A stretch of 64,000 nucleotides of DNA. Origin: Mariprofundus sp. NF. GTDB taxonomy: Bacteria; Pseudomonadota; Zetaproteobacteria; Mariprofundales; Mariprofundaceae. Shown here piece after piece: positions 21,473-28,197 of the stretch. The translations under genes and the position numbers were made by a program. The notes under the pieces are model-generated. The model made no database searches, was not told the origin of the DNA, and saw only the letters and a program-made list of their open reading frames with translations. The first letter of the stretch is position 1, and the number at the start of each line of letters is the position of its first letter. The stretch covers positions 1 through 64,000 of the forward strand of contig NZ_VWNC01000001.1 in the NCBI RefSeq assembly GCF_013387455.1, read 5' to 3'.

Positions 21473-24220
21473 CTAATTGATTCTATTGAGTGTAACCCAG
21501 ATAGAGGCGATTTCGCGGGCACGATCTTTATCTGTGGGCACAGTAGGGAAAATGCGCCGTTTGCTTATGCCGCGGTGATTGAGAAAACGCTCTATCAGCA
21601 TCAGGCTATATTCAATGCGCTGCATCGACTCCCAGTCGAGACTCTCGCCACTCCATTTCGGATTCAGATCAACAATCAGCGTAGGATCCTCATACATCTT
21701 TTTCAGTACTTTGCGCAGGCGGATACGCTCGTTCAGGGAGAGGTTACCGGACTCATGAAGCCGAATGCGGGTCTCCACAGTCGAGGCGCGCTGTTCAGAG
21801 GCGGCTGAAATGGCGACAGGGTGCAGAGCCAGATCGTGTAGCTTCTTTTGCAGCTCCATACCAAGATTCTCAGCATTAAGTGGTTGACGCTGCCAGACTC
21901 CACTGAGAGGAAGGGTGATTTTAATCTCCCGTTTTTCATTCTCCAGCCTGTGGATCAGATCAATGCTGTTATAACCGACCCGGTTGACCATAGGGTCATT
22001 ATCCGTGACAGCATGTTCAAGCTTCATGCGATAGAGGGACAGTAGCGCATTTCCTTGATACTGCTCTTCCGATACATCCTGTTTGATCTTCAGTGCGGCT
22101 GAAATTCGGCCCTGAATCGGTTTGGGAAAACCTGATGCGACCATCCACTCGCTGAGGAAGAAGGGGGTGGCATTATCAAGGCTGATTGTGCCGAGAAACT
22201 GCTCCGAAGCAGCGAGTGGGCTCCATTGCCCATCGAGTTTGAATGCTCCTCCGCCCATCTTTCCCTCTAATACTATGCTGGAAGCGCTCTGCGGGGATAG
22301 CGAAGCGAGCTGGAGCTCTGCATCTTTCAGCCAGTAGGAGTCCGCTTGTCCGACGCTGATGTGGCCATTTTTCCAGTGGATCTCATCCACCTGCCACTTT
22401 CCGGCGATCAGGTTTTCAGCCCACCACGCCTGCTGCTGGGGCGCTGGCTCGGCGCTACTATTATCTTTCAGGTAGGGCGATAGCGGTTGCAGGGGAGCAA
22501 TATAGTGCCACTTTTCGGCGAGCAGTGATTGAACATGTTGGATGTCGCCAGCTGTGCCGACGGGGCCGAAGGAGGTGGTCACCTTCTCAGCCATCCAGCG
22601 GTTGCCAGCATGGGCGAGAAGCAGGTTTTCGCTGCTGGCTCGGCCATGAAACAGCCATGTTCCATTGTTAAAAGTGGCCCCAATTGTAAGGGCTGCCGCT
22701 CCATCAAGCATTAGAGGGGAGCTCTCTGAACCTTTGAGCGGGATCAGTGGGCGCAGTTGGGTCAGTGGAATATCTGCAGCTTTTATCTTCAGATCCGCAC
22801 CTTCAAAGTGGCCATCCTGCCGCCCAACTTCACCCTGGATACGCCACTTTGCCGCCTCTTCCTGGGTGGTGGCGCTTTTAAGTTTAATATTTTTTATGCC
22901 GGAGCTGGAGAGTGAGCAGCTGCCATTCAGCTCTGAGAGCTGGATGTCTCCTGCGTTGAGTGAAAGCAGTATATTGAGGCCATTAATATCAACTGTGCTG
23001 ATATTGTAGTGCCAGGATTGTGATTGCTGCCTGTTGGCACCGCTCTGTAGCTGAGGTTGGTAGGATATATCAGGTTTTGACAGCATGAGACTGTCGGCTT
23101 CAAATGTCCTCTGGCTGGAATCCATTTTTAGATCACGATAATCCAGCCTTTCGATGCTCCAGTTACTAAGCGACTCATCAGAGAGTGGGGCAAAGGTGAT
23201 TTGATTCAGCGTGCCCTGCTTGCTGCTAAAACGTGAGCCTCTCTCATCACTCTGCCAGAGCAGATCACCATCGAGTGTTGCTCCGATGAGCTGTCGGTTT
23301 TCAATGGCTGGAAGGTGGGAGTTCCATGCATCCAGTTGCCAGGCGATGCTTTGCATGGCGATCTTCAAACCACTGTCTGAGTGGGTTCCCTGCCACTGTA
23401 GTTTAGAAGCGTGCAGAGCCTTCTCCTCATGCTGCTGATCAACTCTTAGCTCACCGAGAAGAGAAACCGTCGCAGATTCGCTGTTTTCTCTCTGCCACTC
23501 CATCTCGCCAGAGAGGAAACCGGAGAGAGGGCCGGGATTTGCCGCTTTAGTCAGCTGAGAGAGATCGATATATCGCCAGTTTACACTACCACTGTTCTCT
23601 CCAGCACCGTCTGCCGATCTAAGCCAGTGAGCCTGAACAGGTGCGCCATTAACACTGGATGTGAGCGTGAGAGAGCGCATCTCGCCAAGCGCCAGTTGTG
23701 AGAGCTGCAGATCAGAGAGGATCAGCGGTGGGTTGGCATCATCATCGTCGAGATAAAGGGCGAGCTCGCCACTATCAACGACTACAGCATGTGTCGCCTG
23801 CCAGATGCGCTGAAGTTGTCTATCCTGCTGCCAGAGATTGAGTTTTTCAGGGCGGTGCAGTTGCGCATGCAGACCCGTGATCTGCATGCTGCCGATCTTC
23901 GGATTTTCACCGGTCAGCTGCTGCGGCTGGGCCCGGATAAGCATGTGATCAATGTTAAGTCTATCGCCATTACGTTTGATGTTGATCTGACGAAGGATCA
24001 GGCCATTGCGCAACAGGTGATAACGCACATCACCGATTTCAACATCTGCACTTTTCGCCCACTTGTAAATTGCCTCTTCGGCCTGTTTCTGGGCCTGAAT
24101 CTGCAGTGAGAGATGCACGGCTACACAGAGCAGCGACAGAATGGCTATCCAGGCCAGATACCAGCGGGCTCCCGGCGGAAAGATGCCTACCGGGTGGCGA
24201 AACAGATGTGCTTTTTTCAG
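21473..24220 (-). CDS. DUF748 / AsmA-like envelope protein
   Basis: A protein of about 915 aa with an N-terminal membrane helix and long beta-rich repeats typical of DUF748/AsmA-like proteins, thought to span the periplasm and move or organise lipids. The first standard start (GTG at 24118) would cut the membrane helix in half. Upstream in frame the codons read a basic stretch then WYLAWIAILSLLCVAV, and no ATG, GTG or TTG occurs before the stop codon. A CTG at 24218-24220 lies 4 nt after GGAGG (24225-24229), so I propose CTG initiation. It follows acs by 24 bp and is probably co-transcribed. Confidence 0.75.
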   Translation of the reverse strand: MKKAHLFRHPVGIFPPGARWYLAWIAILSLLCVAVHLSLQIQAQKQAEEAIYKWAKSADVEIGDVRYHLLRNGLILRQINIKRNGDRLNIDHMLIRAQPQQLTGENPKIGSMQITGLHAQLHRPEKLNLWQQDRQLQRIWQATHAVVVDSGELALYLDDDDANPPLILSDLQLSQLALGEMRSLTLTSSVNGAPVQAHWLRSADGAGENSGSVNWRYIDLSQLTKAANPGPLSGFLSGEMEWQRENSESATVSLLGELRVDQQHEEKALHASKLQWQGTHSDSGLKIAMQSIAWQLDAWNSHLPAIENRQLIGATLDGDLLWQSDERGSRFSSKQGTLNQITFAPLSDESLSNWSIERLDYRDLKMDSSQRTFEADSLMLSKPDISYQPQLQSGANRQQSQSWHYNISTVDINGLNILLSLNAGDIQLSELNGSCSLSSSGIKNIKLKSATTQEEAAKWRIQGEVGRQDGHFEGADLKIKAADIPLTQLRPLIPLKGSESSPLMLDGAAALTIGATFNNGTWLFHGRASSENLLLAHAGNRWMAEKVTTSFGPVGTAGDIQHVQSLLAEKWHYIAPLQPLSPYLKDNSSAEPAPQQQAWWAENLIAGKWQVDEIHWKNGHISVGQADSYWLKDAELQLASLSPQSASSIVLEGKMGGGAFKLDGQWSPLAASEQFLGTISLDNATPFFLSEWMVASGFPKPIQGRISAALKIKQDVSEEQYQGNALLSLYRMKLEHAVTDNDPMVNRVGYNSIDLIHRLENEKREIKITLPLSGVWQRQPLNAENLGMELQKKLHDLALHPVAISAASEQRASTVETRIRLHESGNLSLNERIRLRKVLKKMYEDPTLIVDLNPKWSGESLDWESMQRIEYSLMLIERFLNHRGISKRRIFPTVPTDKDRAREIASIWVTLNRIN

Positions 24221-24244
24221 ATCGCCTCCACGTTTATGCTGCTG

Positions 24245-26191
24245 TTAGAGCCTACTGTTTTGCAGCTGCTCTACAACAGACTGATCTTCCAGCGTTGAGA
24301 TATCCGAGGTGATCGGTCGATCAGCAGCGATATCCCTGAGCAGGCGGCGCATGATTTTACCCGAGCGCGTTTTCGGCAGCGAGTCGGCAAAACGGATGTC
24401 ATCAGGTTTGGCGATGGCACCGATCTCTTTGGTGACATGGGCACGCAACTCTGCCGCCAGTGTTTCACTAACCTCACATTTCAGCACCACAAAGGCGCAG
24501 ATCGCTTCGCCCTTGATCGCATCAGGGCGACCAATGACAGCCGCTTCAGCAACAGCTTCGTGTGATACCAGTGCTGACTCCAGCTCCATCGTGCCCAACC
24601 TGTGGCCGGATACGTTGAGCACATCATCGACGCGCCCCATGATCCAGAAATAACCATCGTCATCACGGCGTGCGCCATCACCGGCAAAATAGTAGCGGCC
24701 GCCGAAGGCCTTCCAGTAGGTGTCGATATAACGCTGATCATCACCCCAGACGCCTCGCAACATCGATGGCCATGGTTTGCGAATCACCAGCAGGCCACCA
24801 CCCTCGCTGACCGGCTTGCCCTCTTCATCGACCACTGCAGCATCGATTCCCGGCAGTGGTTTGGTTGCAGAACCGGGTTTGGTCGGTGTGGCAAATGGCA
24901 TCGGGGCAAGCATGTGACCACCGGTTTCGGTCTGCCACCAGGTATCAACAATCGGGCAGCGCCCTTTGCCGATCACCTCATGGTACCACATCCACGCTTC
25001 GGGGTTGATCGGTTCACCTACCGTGCCAAGCACGCGCAGTTTCGAGAGGTCATGGCTATCTGGCCACTGATCCCCGGCTTTATTCAGAGCACGAATGGCG
25101 GTTGGTGCGGTGTAGAAGATAGTGACACCATGATCAGCGCAGATTTTCCACAAGCGACCGGGATCGGGGTAGGTGGGTACACCCTCATACATCACTGTGG
25201 TGCCGCCATTGGCCAGCGGGCCGTAGACAGAGTAGGTGTGACCGGTGATCCAGCCGACATCGGCGGTGCACCAGAAGACATCACTCTCAGGCCGGAAGTC
25301 AAAGCTCCAGCGCATGGTTAGCCGTGCCCAGAGCAGGTAACCTGCCGTGGAGTGCAGGATACCTTTGGGTTTGCCGGTGGAGCCGGAGGTGTAGAGGATA
25401 AACAGCGGATGTTCAGAATCCAGTGTGGCAGGTTCGCAGTGGTCCGGTTGAGCATTGAGGGCATCAAGCCAGTTGATATCACGACCGGCCGACCAGTCGA
25501 TCTCATTACCGGCATGACGAACCACCAGCACATGCGAGATGGTGCGGCAACCCTCGGAGAGTGCTTCATCAACATTGGGTTTAAGGGCATGGATACCGCC
25601 GCGACGGCCGCCACCATCGGCGGTAATCACCAGCTTCGCTCCGGCATCTTCGATACGATCACGTAGCGCCTGCGGTGAGAAGGCGCCAAAGACCACAGAG
25701 TGTACGGCACCGATACGGGTACAAGCGAGCATGGCGATAGCGGCTTCGGCGATCATTGGCATATAGATGATCACTCGATCACCGGCCTTGATGCCAATCT
25801 CTTTCATGGCATTGGCTGCTCGGCACACCTCATGCAGCAGATTACTATAACTGTAGTTACGCACCTCACCGGCTTCAGACTCCCAGATAATAGCGGTGCG
25901 TTCGCCAAGGCCTGCTTCAACATGCCGATCAAGGCAGTTTTCCGAGAGATTGATTTTGCCATCCTCAAACCAGCGGAAGAAGGGGGCATGTTCACTGTTG
26001 AGCACGCGGGTGAATGGTTGCCGCCAGCTCAGGTGCTCACGGGCCAGATCACGCCATGTACTATCCGAATCATTTTCGAACTGTTCCCGTATGGCTTCAT
26101 ACTCCTGCATCGATGCAATATGACCCCGGTGCCCTTGTGGCGGGTTAAATATGCGAGTTTCATCAAGGATGGTGGTGATCGCTTCAGACAT
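24245..26191 (-). CDS. acs: Acetyl-CoA synthetase
   Basis: AMP-forming acetate activation to acetyl-CoA. ANL-superfamily motifs are intact: the AMP-binding loop [11 protein letters not shown], the acetyl-pocket segment (TWWQTETGG), the hinge region ([13 protein letters not shown]) and the acetylation-site motif with the catalytic lysine, [12 protein letters not shown] start it at the ATG at 26191, preceded by GGAGGAGCC, giving 648 aa, the usual length; a frame extension of 7 residues upstream lacks support. The lysine in SGKIMRR is the residue inactivated by acetylation in this family. Confidence 0.97.
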
Positions 26192-26278
26192 GGCTCCTCC
26201 AGTGGCACTCATTTCTAACAGGTGGCGTATAGCGGGACAACAGGCTTTCGCTGATGTGTTAATAGGTTATTATAGCGC

Positions 26279-27729: not shown

Positions 27730-28019
27730 GTCAGCATGTTGAAATTAACCTGATGGGTCGCTCATTTACGATCATGACCGATGAAGATCCTGCACAGGTA
27801 ACTGCTGCTGCGAACCTTGTGCAGGAGCATATCGATGAGATCAGGCAGATGGGGACGACCGTCGGTTCAGATCGCCTTCTAACCCTTGTTGCACTCAATC
27901 TGGCAGGTGAACTGCTGAAAGATAAAGAGGGTAAAGTGGAGGGGCTGGACTCCTTGATCTCTGCATTTGACGGTGTAGTATCACAAGCAGAAGGTTTAGC
28001 GAAAGCGCCCCTGCGTTGA
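27726..28019 (+). CDS. zapA: Cell division protein ZapA
   Basis: A 97-aa protein that binds and bundles FtsZ at the division site. The N-terminal fold (VEINLMGRSFTI then a two-helix segment with RLLTLVALNLAGELL) is the standard ZapA pattern, ending in a helix. The downstream 6S RNA and 5-formyl-THF cyclo-ligase are the same neighbours as in Gammaproteobacteria. Confidence 0.95.
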   Translation: MSQHVEINLMGRSFTIMTDEDPAQVTAAANLVQEHIDEIRQMGTTVGSDRLLTLVALNLAGELLKDKEGKVEGLDSLISAFDGVVSQAEGLAKAPLR

Positions 28020-28197
28020 TCGAATGGCAGAAATGTTGCCTGAGCCGATACTTGTCGAAAGGGAGCCTACCTACTTTGGCCGTGAGCGTCCCCTAACCGG
28101 GATACCTGAAGCTGAAGTGCGGCGCCCACCTCTTGTTAGAGGGTTCGACGACTGTTTGCCACGACGCCAGCGTGGGGGCGCCCCATCTACTCCCTTG
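28020..28197 (+). ncRNA. ssrS: 6S RNA
   Basis: The stretch between zapA and fau contains CCTGAGCCGATA (28039-28050), identical to the 5' strand of the E. coli 6S RNA central region. A GTGAGC...CCTGAAGC apical arm, a CGACGAC segment, a CCACG/CGTGG hairpin (about 28160-28175) and a GGCGCCCCATCTACTCCC 3' end follow in the same order as in E. coli 6S RNA. 6S RNA mimics an open promoter and holds sigma-70 RNA polymerase in stationary phase. The zapA-ssrS-fau order is the classical location. The ends are approximate; a short reading frame here is a shadow. Confidence 0.82.

Follow-up and report, generated by a model that had tools for sequence, protein, structure and literature searches.

A CTG codon as the probable translation start of a DUF748-like gene across the genus Mariprofundus

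Conserved rare start codons are already known from a small number of bacterial genes, as are single CTG starts. In E. coli and other bacteria, infC retains an ATT or ATC start for translational control, through which IF3 regulates its own synthesis, and the sigR gene of Streptomyces is described as beginning with GTC in 32 of 34 species and with GTT in the rest, behind a strong, conserved ribosome-binding site; changing the sigR start to ATG, GTG or TTG raised its output (PMC5472188). CTG starts have been reported for plasmid repA and ano in E. coli and for rpsL in Deinococcus deserti (PMC5960689). CUG makes up 0.024% of the start codons of bacteria, and its output in E. coli is 0.86% of that of AUG (PMC11497404), and among 61,358 ancestral AUG starts, two turned into CUG (PMC5622118). 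In mycobacteria, CTG was reported without enrichment at leadered starts, which speaks against easy CUG initiation generally (PMC4633059).

Here, we describe an apparent CTG start that is kept almost throughout the iron-oxidizing genus Mariprofundus on a DUF748-like gene, and another, on a transglycosylase gene, that recurs across several genera, whereas the CTG starts reported in the source cited above are those of single genes. The locus is like sigR in that a rare start codon is retained across a genus. It differs in its codon (GTC in sigR) and in the gene concerned, and control by IF3, which was tested in sigR, is proposed here by inference. It also differs from infC, which controls IF3 itself, since no feedback is known for the DUF748-like gene. 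Within the openly licensed literature, we found neither a report of a CTG start kept genus-wide nor a paper on CTG starts in Mariprofundus.

A DUF748-like gene read from a CTG codon

The window (the whole 64,000-nt stretch of DNA analyzed) belongs to contig 1 of a 2.53 Mb Mariprofundus genome. Its relevant features are as follows.

24245..26212, minus strand: acs, the gene for acetyl-CoA synthetase, immediately 5' of the DUF748-like gene and on its strand (upstream in 23 of 23 genus loci)
24225..24229, minus strand: Shine-Dalgarno (SD) motif GGAGG, spaced 4 nt from the CTG; the 16S tail of this genome, GATCACCTCCTTT, is complementary to it
24218..24220, minus strand: probable CTG start codon (of 23 genomes of the genus, 22 have CTG here and one has TTG)
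21473..24220, minus strand: DUF748-like gene with its start taken at the CTG, encoding 915 aa and ending in TAG (from the reading frame and Pfam)
24104..24160, minus strand: hydrophobic membrane anchor, residues 21-39, with a predicted helix at residues 16-57
24116..24118, minus strand: GTG, codon 35 counted from the CTG, the first standard in-frame start; it lies inside the membrane helix and is probably unused
21476..21811, minus strand: C-terminal domain, residues 804-915, modelled with an OmpA-like peptidoglycan-binding fold

The original prediction held that translation probably starts at a CTG 4 nt behind GGAGG, with no ATG, GTG or TTG before the in-frame stop; the placing of the CTG and the lack of a standard start were both borne out. 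The GGAGG (24229-24225) is separated from the CTG (24220-24218) by CGAT (24224-24221, minus strand), and the 16S tail of this genome contains the matching CCTCC. The acs stop codon, TAA at 24247-24245, lies in the same frame as the DUF748-like gene, with the CTG 24 nt downstream of it, and between this TAA and the GTG at 24118 there is no in-frame ATG, GTG or TTG. It was also correctly foreseen that the anchor would be lost from the first standard start, as GTG 24118 falls within both the hydrophobic stretch and the predicted helix. Read from the CTG, residues 21-39 form the most hydrophobic 19-residue stretch of the protein (Kyte-Doolittle mean 2.16), while a protein begun at GTG 24118 has no 19-residue stretch above 0.85.

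The identification of the product as a DUF748 protein held in part. It scored 44.8 bits (E 6.5e-12) against Pfam DUF748 (PF05359), missing the gathering score of 50, and is thus a relative rather than a filed member of the family; "DUF748-like" is the safer name. The whole protein had no NCBIfam match and its C-terminal part no Pfam match. The predicted model (pLDDT 83.7, pTM 0.65) has an anchor helix, a long beta-rich body and a C-terminal mixed domain. The only Foldseek hit to this model below 1e-3 was LPD-3, a bridge-like lipid-transfer protein (E 7e-14, TMq 0.20), with low TM-scores of 0.20 and 0.15; direct structure comparison of the model with LPD-3 gave Z 8.8 over 248 residues. Within residues 802-915 of the model, the OmpA-like peptidoglycan-binding fold was matched with Z up to 10.8 over 101 residues. 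AsmA-like or bridge-like lipid-transfer proteins (YhdP, TamB, YdbH) are described as having an N-terminal inner-membrane anchor and a long beta-sheet body, an architecture that our predicted model may share; the DUF748-like protein differs from them in its C-terminal OmpA-like domain, in its low TM-scores to LPD-3 and in a DUF748 score below the cut-off. We read the predicted structure as that of an inner-membrane-anchored, AsmA-like envelope protein, which may reach to the peptidoglycan.

The CTG codon across Mariprofundus and other genera

The first 65 residues were searched against 23 Mariprofundus genomes. The conserved N-terminus was present in all of them, and the homologous codon was CTG in 22; the exception, M. 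erugo (G001), has TTG in the start column with a CTG immediately ahead of it. A chance origin of the CTG is excluded since it is kept in 22 of the 23 genomes. All counts for the genus are inflated by relatedness, and the CTG may go back to one ancestor of the genus. A contig search gave 30 loci of the gene in Mariprofundus and other Zetaproteobacteria, including M. ferrooxydans PV-1, M. micogutta ET2 and M. erugo P3, and in an alignment of 22 sequences, the 16 same-genus orthologues besides the window's own were 31 to 75% identical to the window protein. In PV-1, the CTG is followed by AAT AGA CCC CAC. Starts could be parsed at 29 of the 30 named loci (L238 was left out), namely 18 from Mariprofundus (17 CTG, one TTG) and 11 from other genera. 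All 11 have ATG, GTG or TTG at or beside the aligned place when read by eye; one further locus of another genus (L030), with CTG two codons ahead of an ATG, was ambiguous and was not counted among them. Because standard starts replace CTG in these 11 loci, the CTG position behaves as a start codon, and the alignment of orthologous N-termini that had been suggested as a check therefore agrees with the predicted start.

Like infC and sigR, then, the gene retains a rare codon among species (CTG in 22 of 23), and the conserved N-terminus has no standard start except in G001 and possibly in G004, where an ATG lies four codons past the CTG and the SD is just 1 nt from it. Elsewhere, a TTG occurs at codon 6 (G011) and an ATG at codon 13 (G018 and G021). 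The SD stands at a working distance, as in that class (GGAGG at 4 nt; a tetramer at 13 of 23 loci). Scored strictly as GGAG, GAGG or AGGA at 3-10 nt upstream, the SD tetramer preceded those 13 of 23 DUF748-like starts vs. 33 of 613 internal CTG codons in the same genes (binomial p = 2e-11, a value that ignores relatedness). The tetramer is absent from the other 10 loci, several of which bear GGTG, AGGT or GGGG by eye. In isolate OFTM252 (G012; L021, L249), the assembly shows the DUF748-like gene as two open pieces of 292 and 676 codons, through either a real break or an assembly error.

We weighed three other accounts of where translation begins. An anchorless protein, made either alone or as a second product from GTG 24118 or from some other standard codon within the gene, is very unlikely. 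GTG 24118 is the first standard in-frame start, and its column holds ATG in many relatives, so that a shorter second product is conceivable; yet the codon cuts the membrane helix, its column (ATG, GTG, ATC or ATT among relatives) reads ATC or ATT in G009 and G004, and a start there leaves the conserved 34 residues and the upstream CTG unexplained. Alternatively, the CTG could encode an internal leucine reached from upstream by readthrough, frameshifting or fusion to acs, and the acs stop of the window does share the frame of the DUF748-like gene. Across the 23 loci, however, the interval from acs stop to start ranges over 20-69 nt and all three frames (13, 7 and 3 loci; in two rows the printed position was off the CTG by one or two codons, which leaves the frame unaffected), and this variable distance implies that readthrough or fusion is not a general mechanism. 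The acs stop codon itself varies (TAA, TAG, TGA), residues before the CTG show no conservation, and two species (G012 and G008) have an in-frame stop immediately 5' of the CTG, making entry from upstream extremely unlikely. A sequencing or assembly error masking an ATG, which had been named as a finding that would overturn the predicted start, is next to impossible: the same error would be required in 22 separately sequenced genomes of varied origin, isolates as well as MAGs, including M. ferrooxydans PV-1 and M. micogutta ET2. On the strength of these comparisons, the DUF748-like gene is almost certainly translated from CTG 24220.

Two further ideas about the surroundings of the gene were discarded. 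The CTG might have arisen when the gene moved beside acs, but acs also adjoins it in five of seven other-genus loci with standard starts (the ambiguous L030 is among the five). An upstream open reading frame ending at the TGA within CTGA was not common to two species compared by eye.

A second CTG gene and a survey for others

To look for comparable starts, we surveyed the window's genome against parts of three others (G007, G011 and G002), covering 263 genes in a first run and 421 genes from 780 kb in the final one. A column passed if it was start-like, if the sequence was conserved downstream but not upstream of it, and if every genome had an SD there. Earlier forms of the survey were too crude: one began from 810 reciprocal best pairs, of which 176 were left after overlap removal, and gave 28 candidates, and a loose column score returned at least 74 CTG columns in 263 genes. 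An intermediate run flagged 22 of 244 genes, of which the DUF748-like gene alone was judged real, and missed the transglycosylase described below. The final run passed standard start columns in 92 genes and eight CTG columns in seven genes; five of these CTG columns (four genes) adjoin a standard start, and the three without one nearby belong to the DUF748-like gene, a lytic transglycosylase and an artefact at RNase R, where the conserved stretch before the gene overlaps a tRNA-Leu gene on the opposite strand. Seventeen control codons gave 19 passing columns in 2915, a single one of which, for GTA (1 of 51 columns), had no nearby standard start; the comparison is rough, since control columns were required to hold one codon throughout, whereas standard starts were allowed among the codons of a CTG column. 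infC was not found among the matches from the 421 genes of the final run.

Two other conserved stretches were noticed. A 6S RNA lies at 28005-28182 on the plus strand of the window (Rfam RF00013, 62.2 bits) and explains the conserved non-coding stretch flagged there by the survey. On contig G000:C1, the ATG of the open reading frame 330325-332010, which looks to us like CTP synthase, is preceded by the codons CTG ATA ACT TGC CGC CCC GTC, which are the same in the window's genome and G002 although the flanks differ; these conserved codons are a possible regulatory leader.

The second gene is the following.

G000:C1:218952-219638 (= L080:18952-19638): lytic transglycosylase (Pfam SLT), with a conserved CTG at its apparent start

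Of 22 Mariprofundus loci, 20 have CTG in its start column and two have TTG, while G008 gave a distant SLT match only. The codon immediately 5' of this CTG in the window's genome is an in-frame TAG. The SD tetramer was found at 18 of the 22 starts vs. 27 of 246 internal CTGs, and none of 27 fourfold sites was as conserved as the start column. SLT matches were present in 40 genomes of other genera of the family, and CTG was read at 18 of the 25 loci examined: 16 of 17 in one set, where six (from g3 and g4) were assigned by eye with the position shifted, and two of eight in another set read by eye, the remainder being ATG or TTG. At three order-level SLT loci, the N-terminus could not be aligned.

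The two CTG genes share several traits. Each product has a membrane segment at its N-terminus and a connection to peptidoglycan (the OmpA-like fold in one, lytic transglycosylase in the other), and each gene closely follows an upstream reading frame or stop. Of the 45 genus rows for the two genes, 44 have AA directly after the start, vs. 20 of 91 standard starts, though a rule could not be drawn from two genes. It is a speculative and rather doubtful extension of these likenesses that CUG starts are retained in Mariprofundus and its family as a shared brake on the expression of a few membrane-anchored envelope genes.

Selection on the codon, proposed mechanism and significance

If the CTG is a start codon, its persistence calls for comment, as a single change of the first base to A, G or T would in each case produce a standard start and C is nevertheless retained in 22 of 23 genomes. 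Retention of C where any other base would provide a standard start points to selection for a weak codon. Among 36 columns of conserved leucine, the start column is the richest in CTG (22 of 23; the runners-up have 18 of 23), while CTG makes up 44% of the 2250 leucine codons in the DUF748-like genes of the genus. The major codon has a share of 0.957 in the start column against a mean of 0.47 at 29 fourfold sites in invariant columns, and not one of the 29 reaches the conservation of the start column (kinship among the species is uncorrected in this comparison).

Alternatively, CTG could be the start and be merely tolerated, as a neutral leftover that has not yet reverted and has no regulatory meaning. 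The species are related, and one or a few origins could account for such a pattern; moreover, both genes have TTG in some genomes (G001 for the DUF748-like gene, G001 and G002 for the transglycosylase), and the SLT gene has ATG or TTG in seven of the 25 other-genus loci read. Against this stand the fourfold sites of the same gene, which have been scrambled while C persisted in 22 of 23 species, and the consideration that a first-base change of any kind would improve initiation. We regard a neutral leftover as unlikely, if a good deal less so than the other starts considered above, and conclude from these codon comparisons that C has probably been kept by selection for weak initiation.

The initiator tRNA and the 16S rRNA look ordinary. 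An anticodon-arm search of the window's genome found one initiator tRNA, with a GGG/CCC anticodon stem and an unpaired C1, and the 16S rRNA reads GGAA at the A-minor grip site. We take this GGAA site to be the one numbered 1338-1339. In E. coli, swapping G30-C40 in the initiator tRNA lessens discrimination against CUG and the 16S change G1338A boosts CUG initiation (PMC11497404). Neither change was seen in the window's genome, and the idea that the whole lineage has a changed initiator tRNA or a changed 16S P site was rejected. infC of the same genome (L180, G000:C2) shows AGGAG and, after 6 nt, ATT AAA AAG, an apparent ATT start that would be as expected for an IF3-controlled gene.

The mechanism that we propose, and consider very likely in outline, is SD-assisted initiation with fMet at CUG, kept by selection and keeping synthesis low. 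The 30S subunit would bind the SD (GGAGG in the window's species), and the fMet-tRNA initiator would be accepted at CUG despite the C-U mismatch at the first position. As a poor initiator, CUG would be discriminated against by IF3, as are other non-canonical codons, and the poor start would yield little of the anchored envelope protein from an acs mRNA that the two genes presumably share; ribosomes ending acs nearby may help initiation at the CUG. The gene's place behind acs suggests few anchored proteins per acs message. The reading frame, the lack of other starts, the conservation, the SD and the unusually strong retention of C are seen directly in the sequences, from which initiation at CUG, low output, the action of IF3 and the shared acs mRNA are all inferred. 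That IF3 sets the level of expression is the more tentative part of this scheme, a fair guess that may well prove wrong.

For annotation, gene finders restricted to ATG, GTG and TTG would yield an anchorless model of this protein in most Mariprofundus genomes, and similar CTG starts elsewhere would escape such programs. The orthologues, with CTG, TTG, GTG or ATG at one position, are ready natural variants for measurement. Were the shared brake on envelope genes real, the level of IF3 could adjust envelope synthesis to the growth state of the cell. More generally, a CUG start kept in a genus, and on a second gene in several genera, provides a natural test of whether weak starts are errors to be purged or a regulatory setting.
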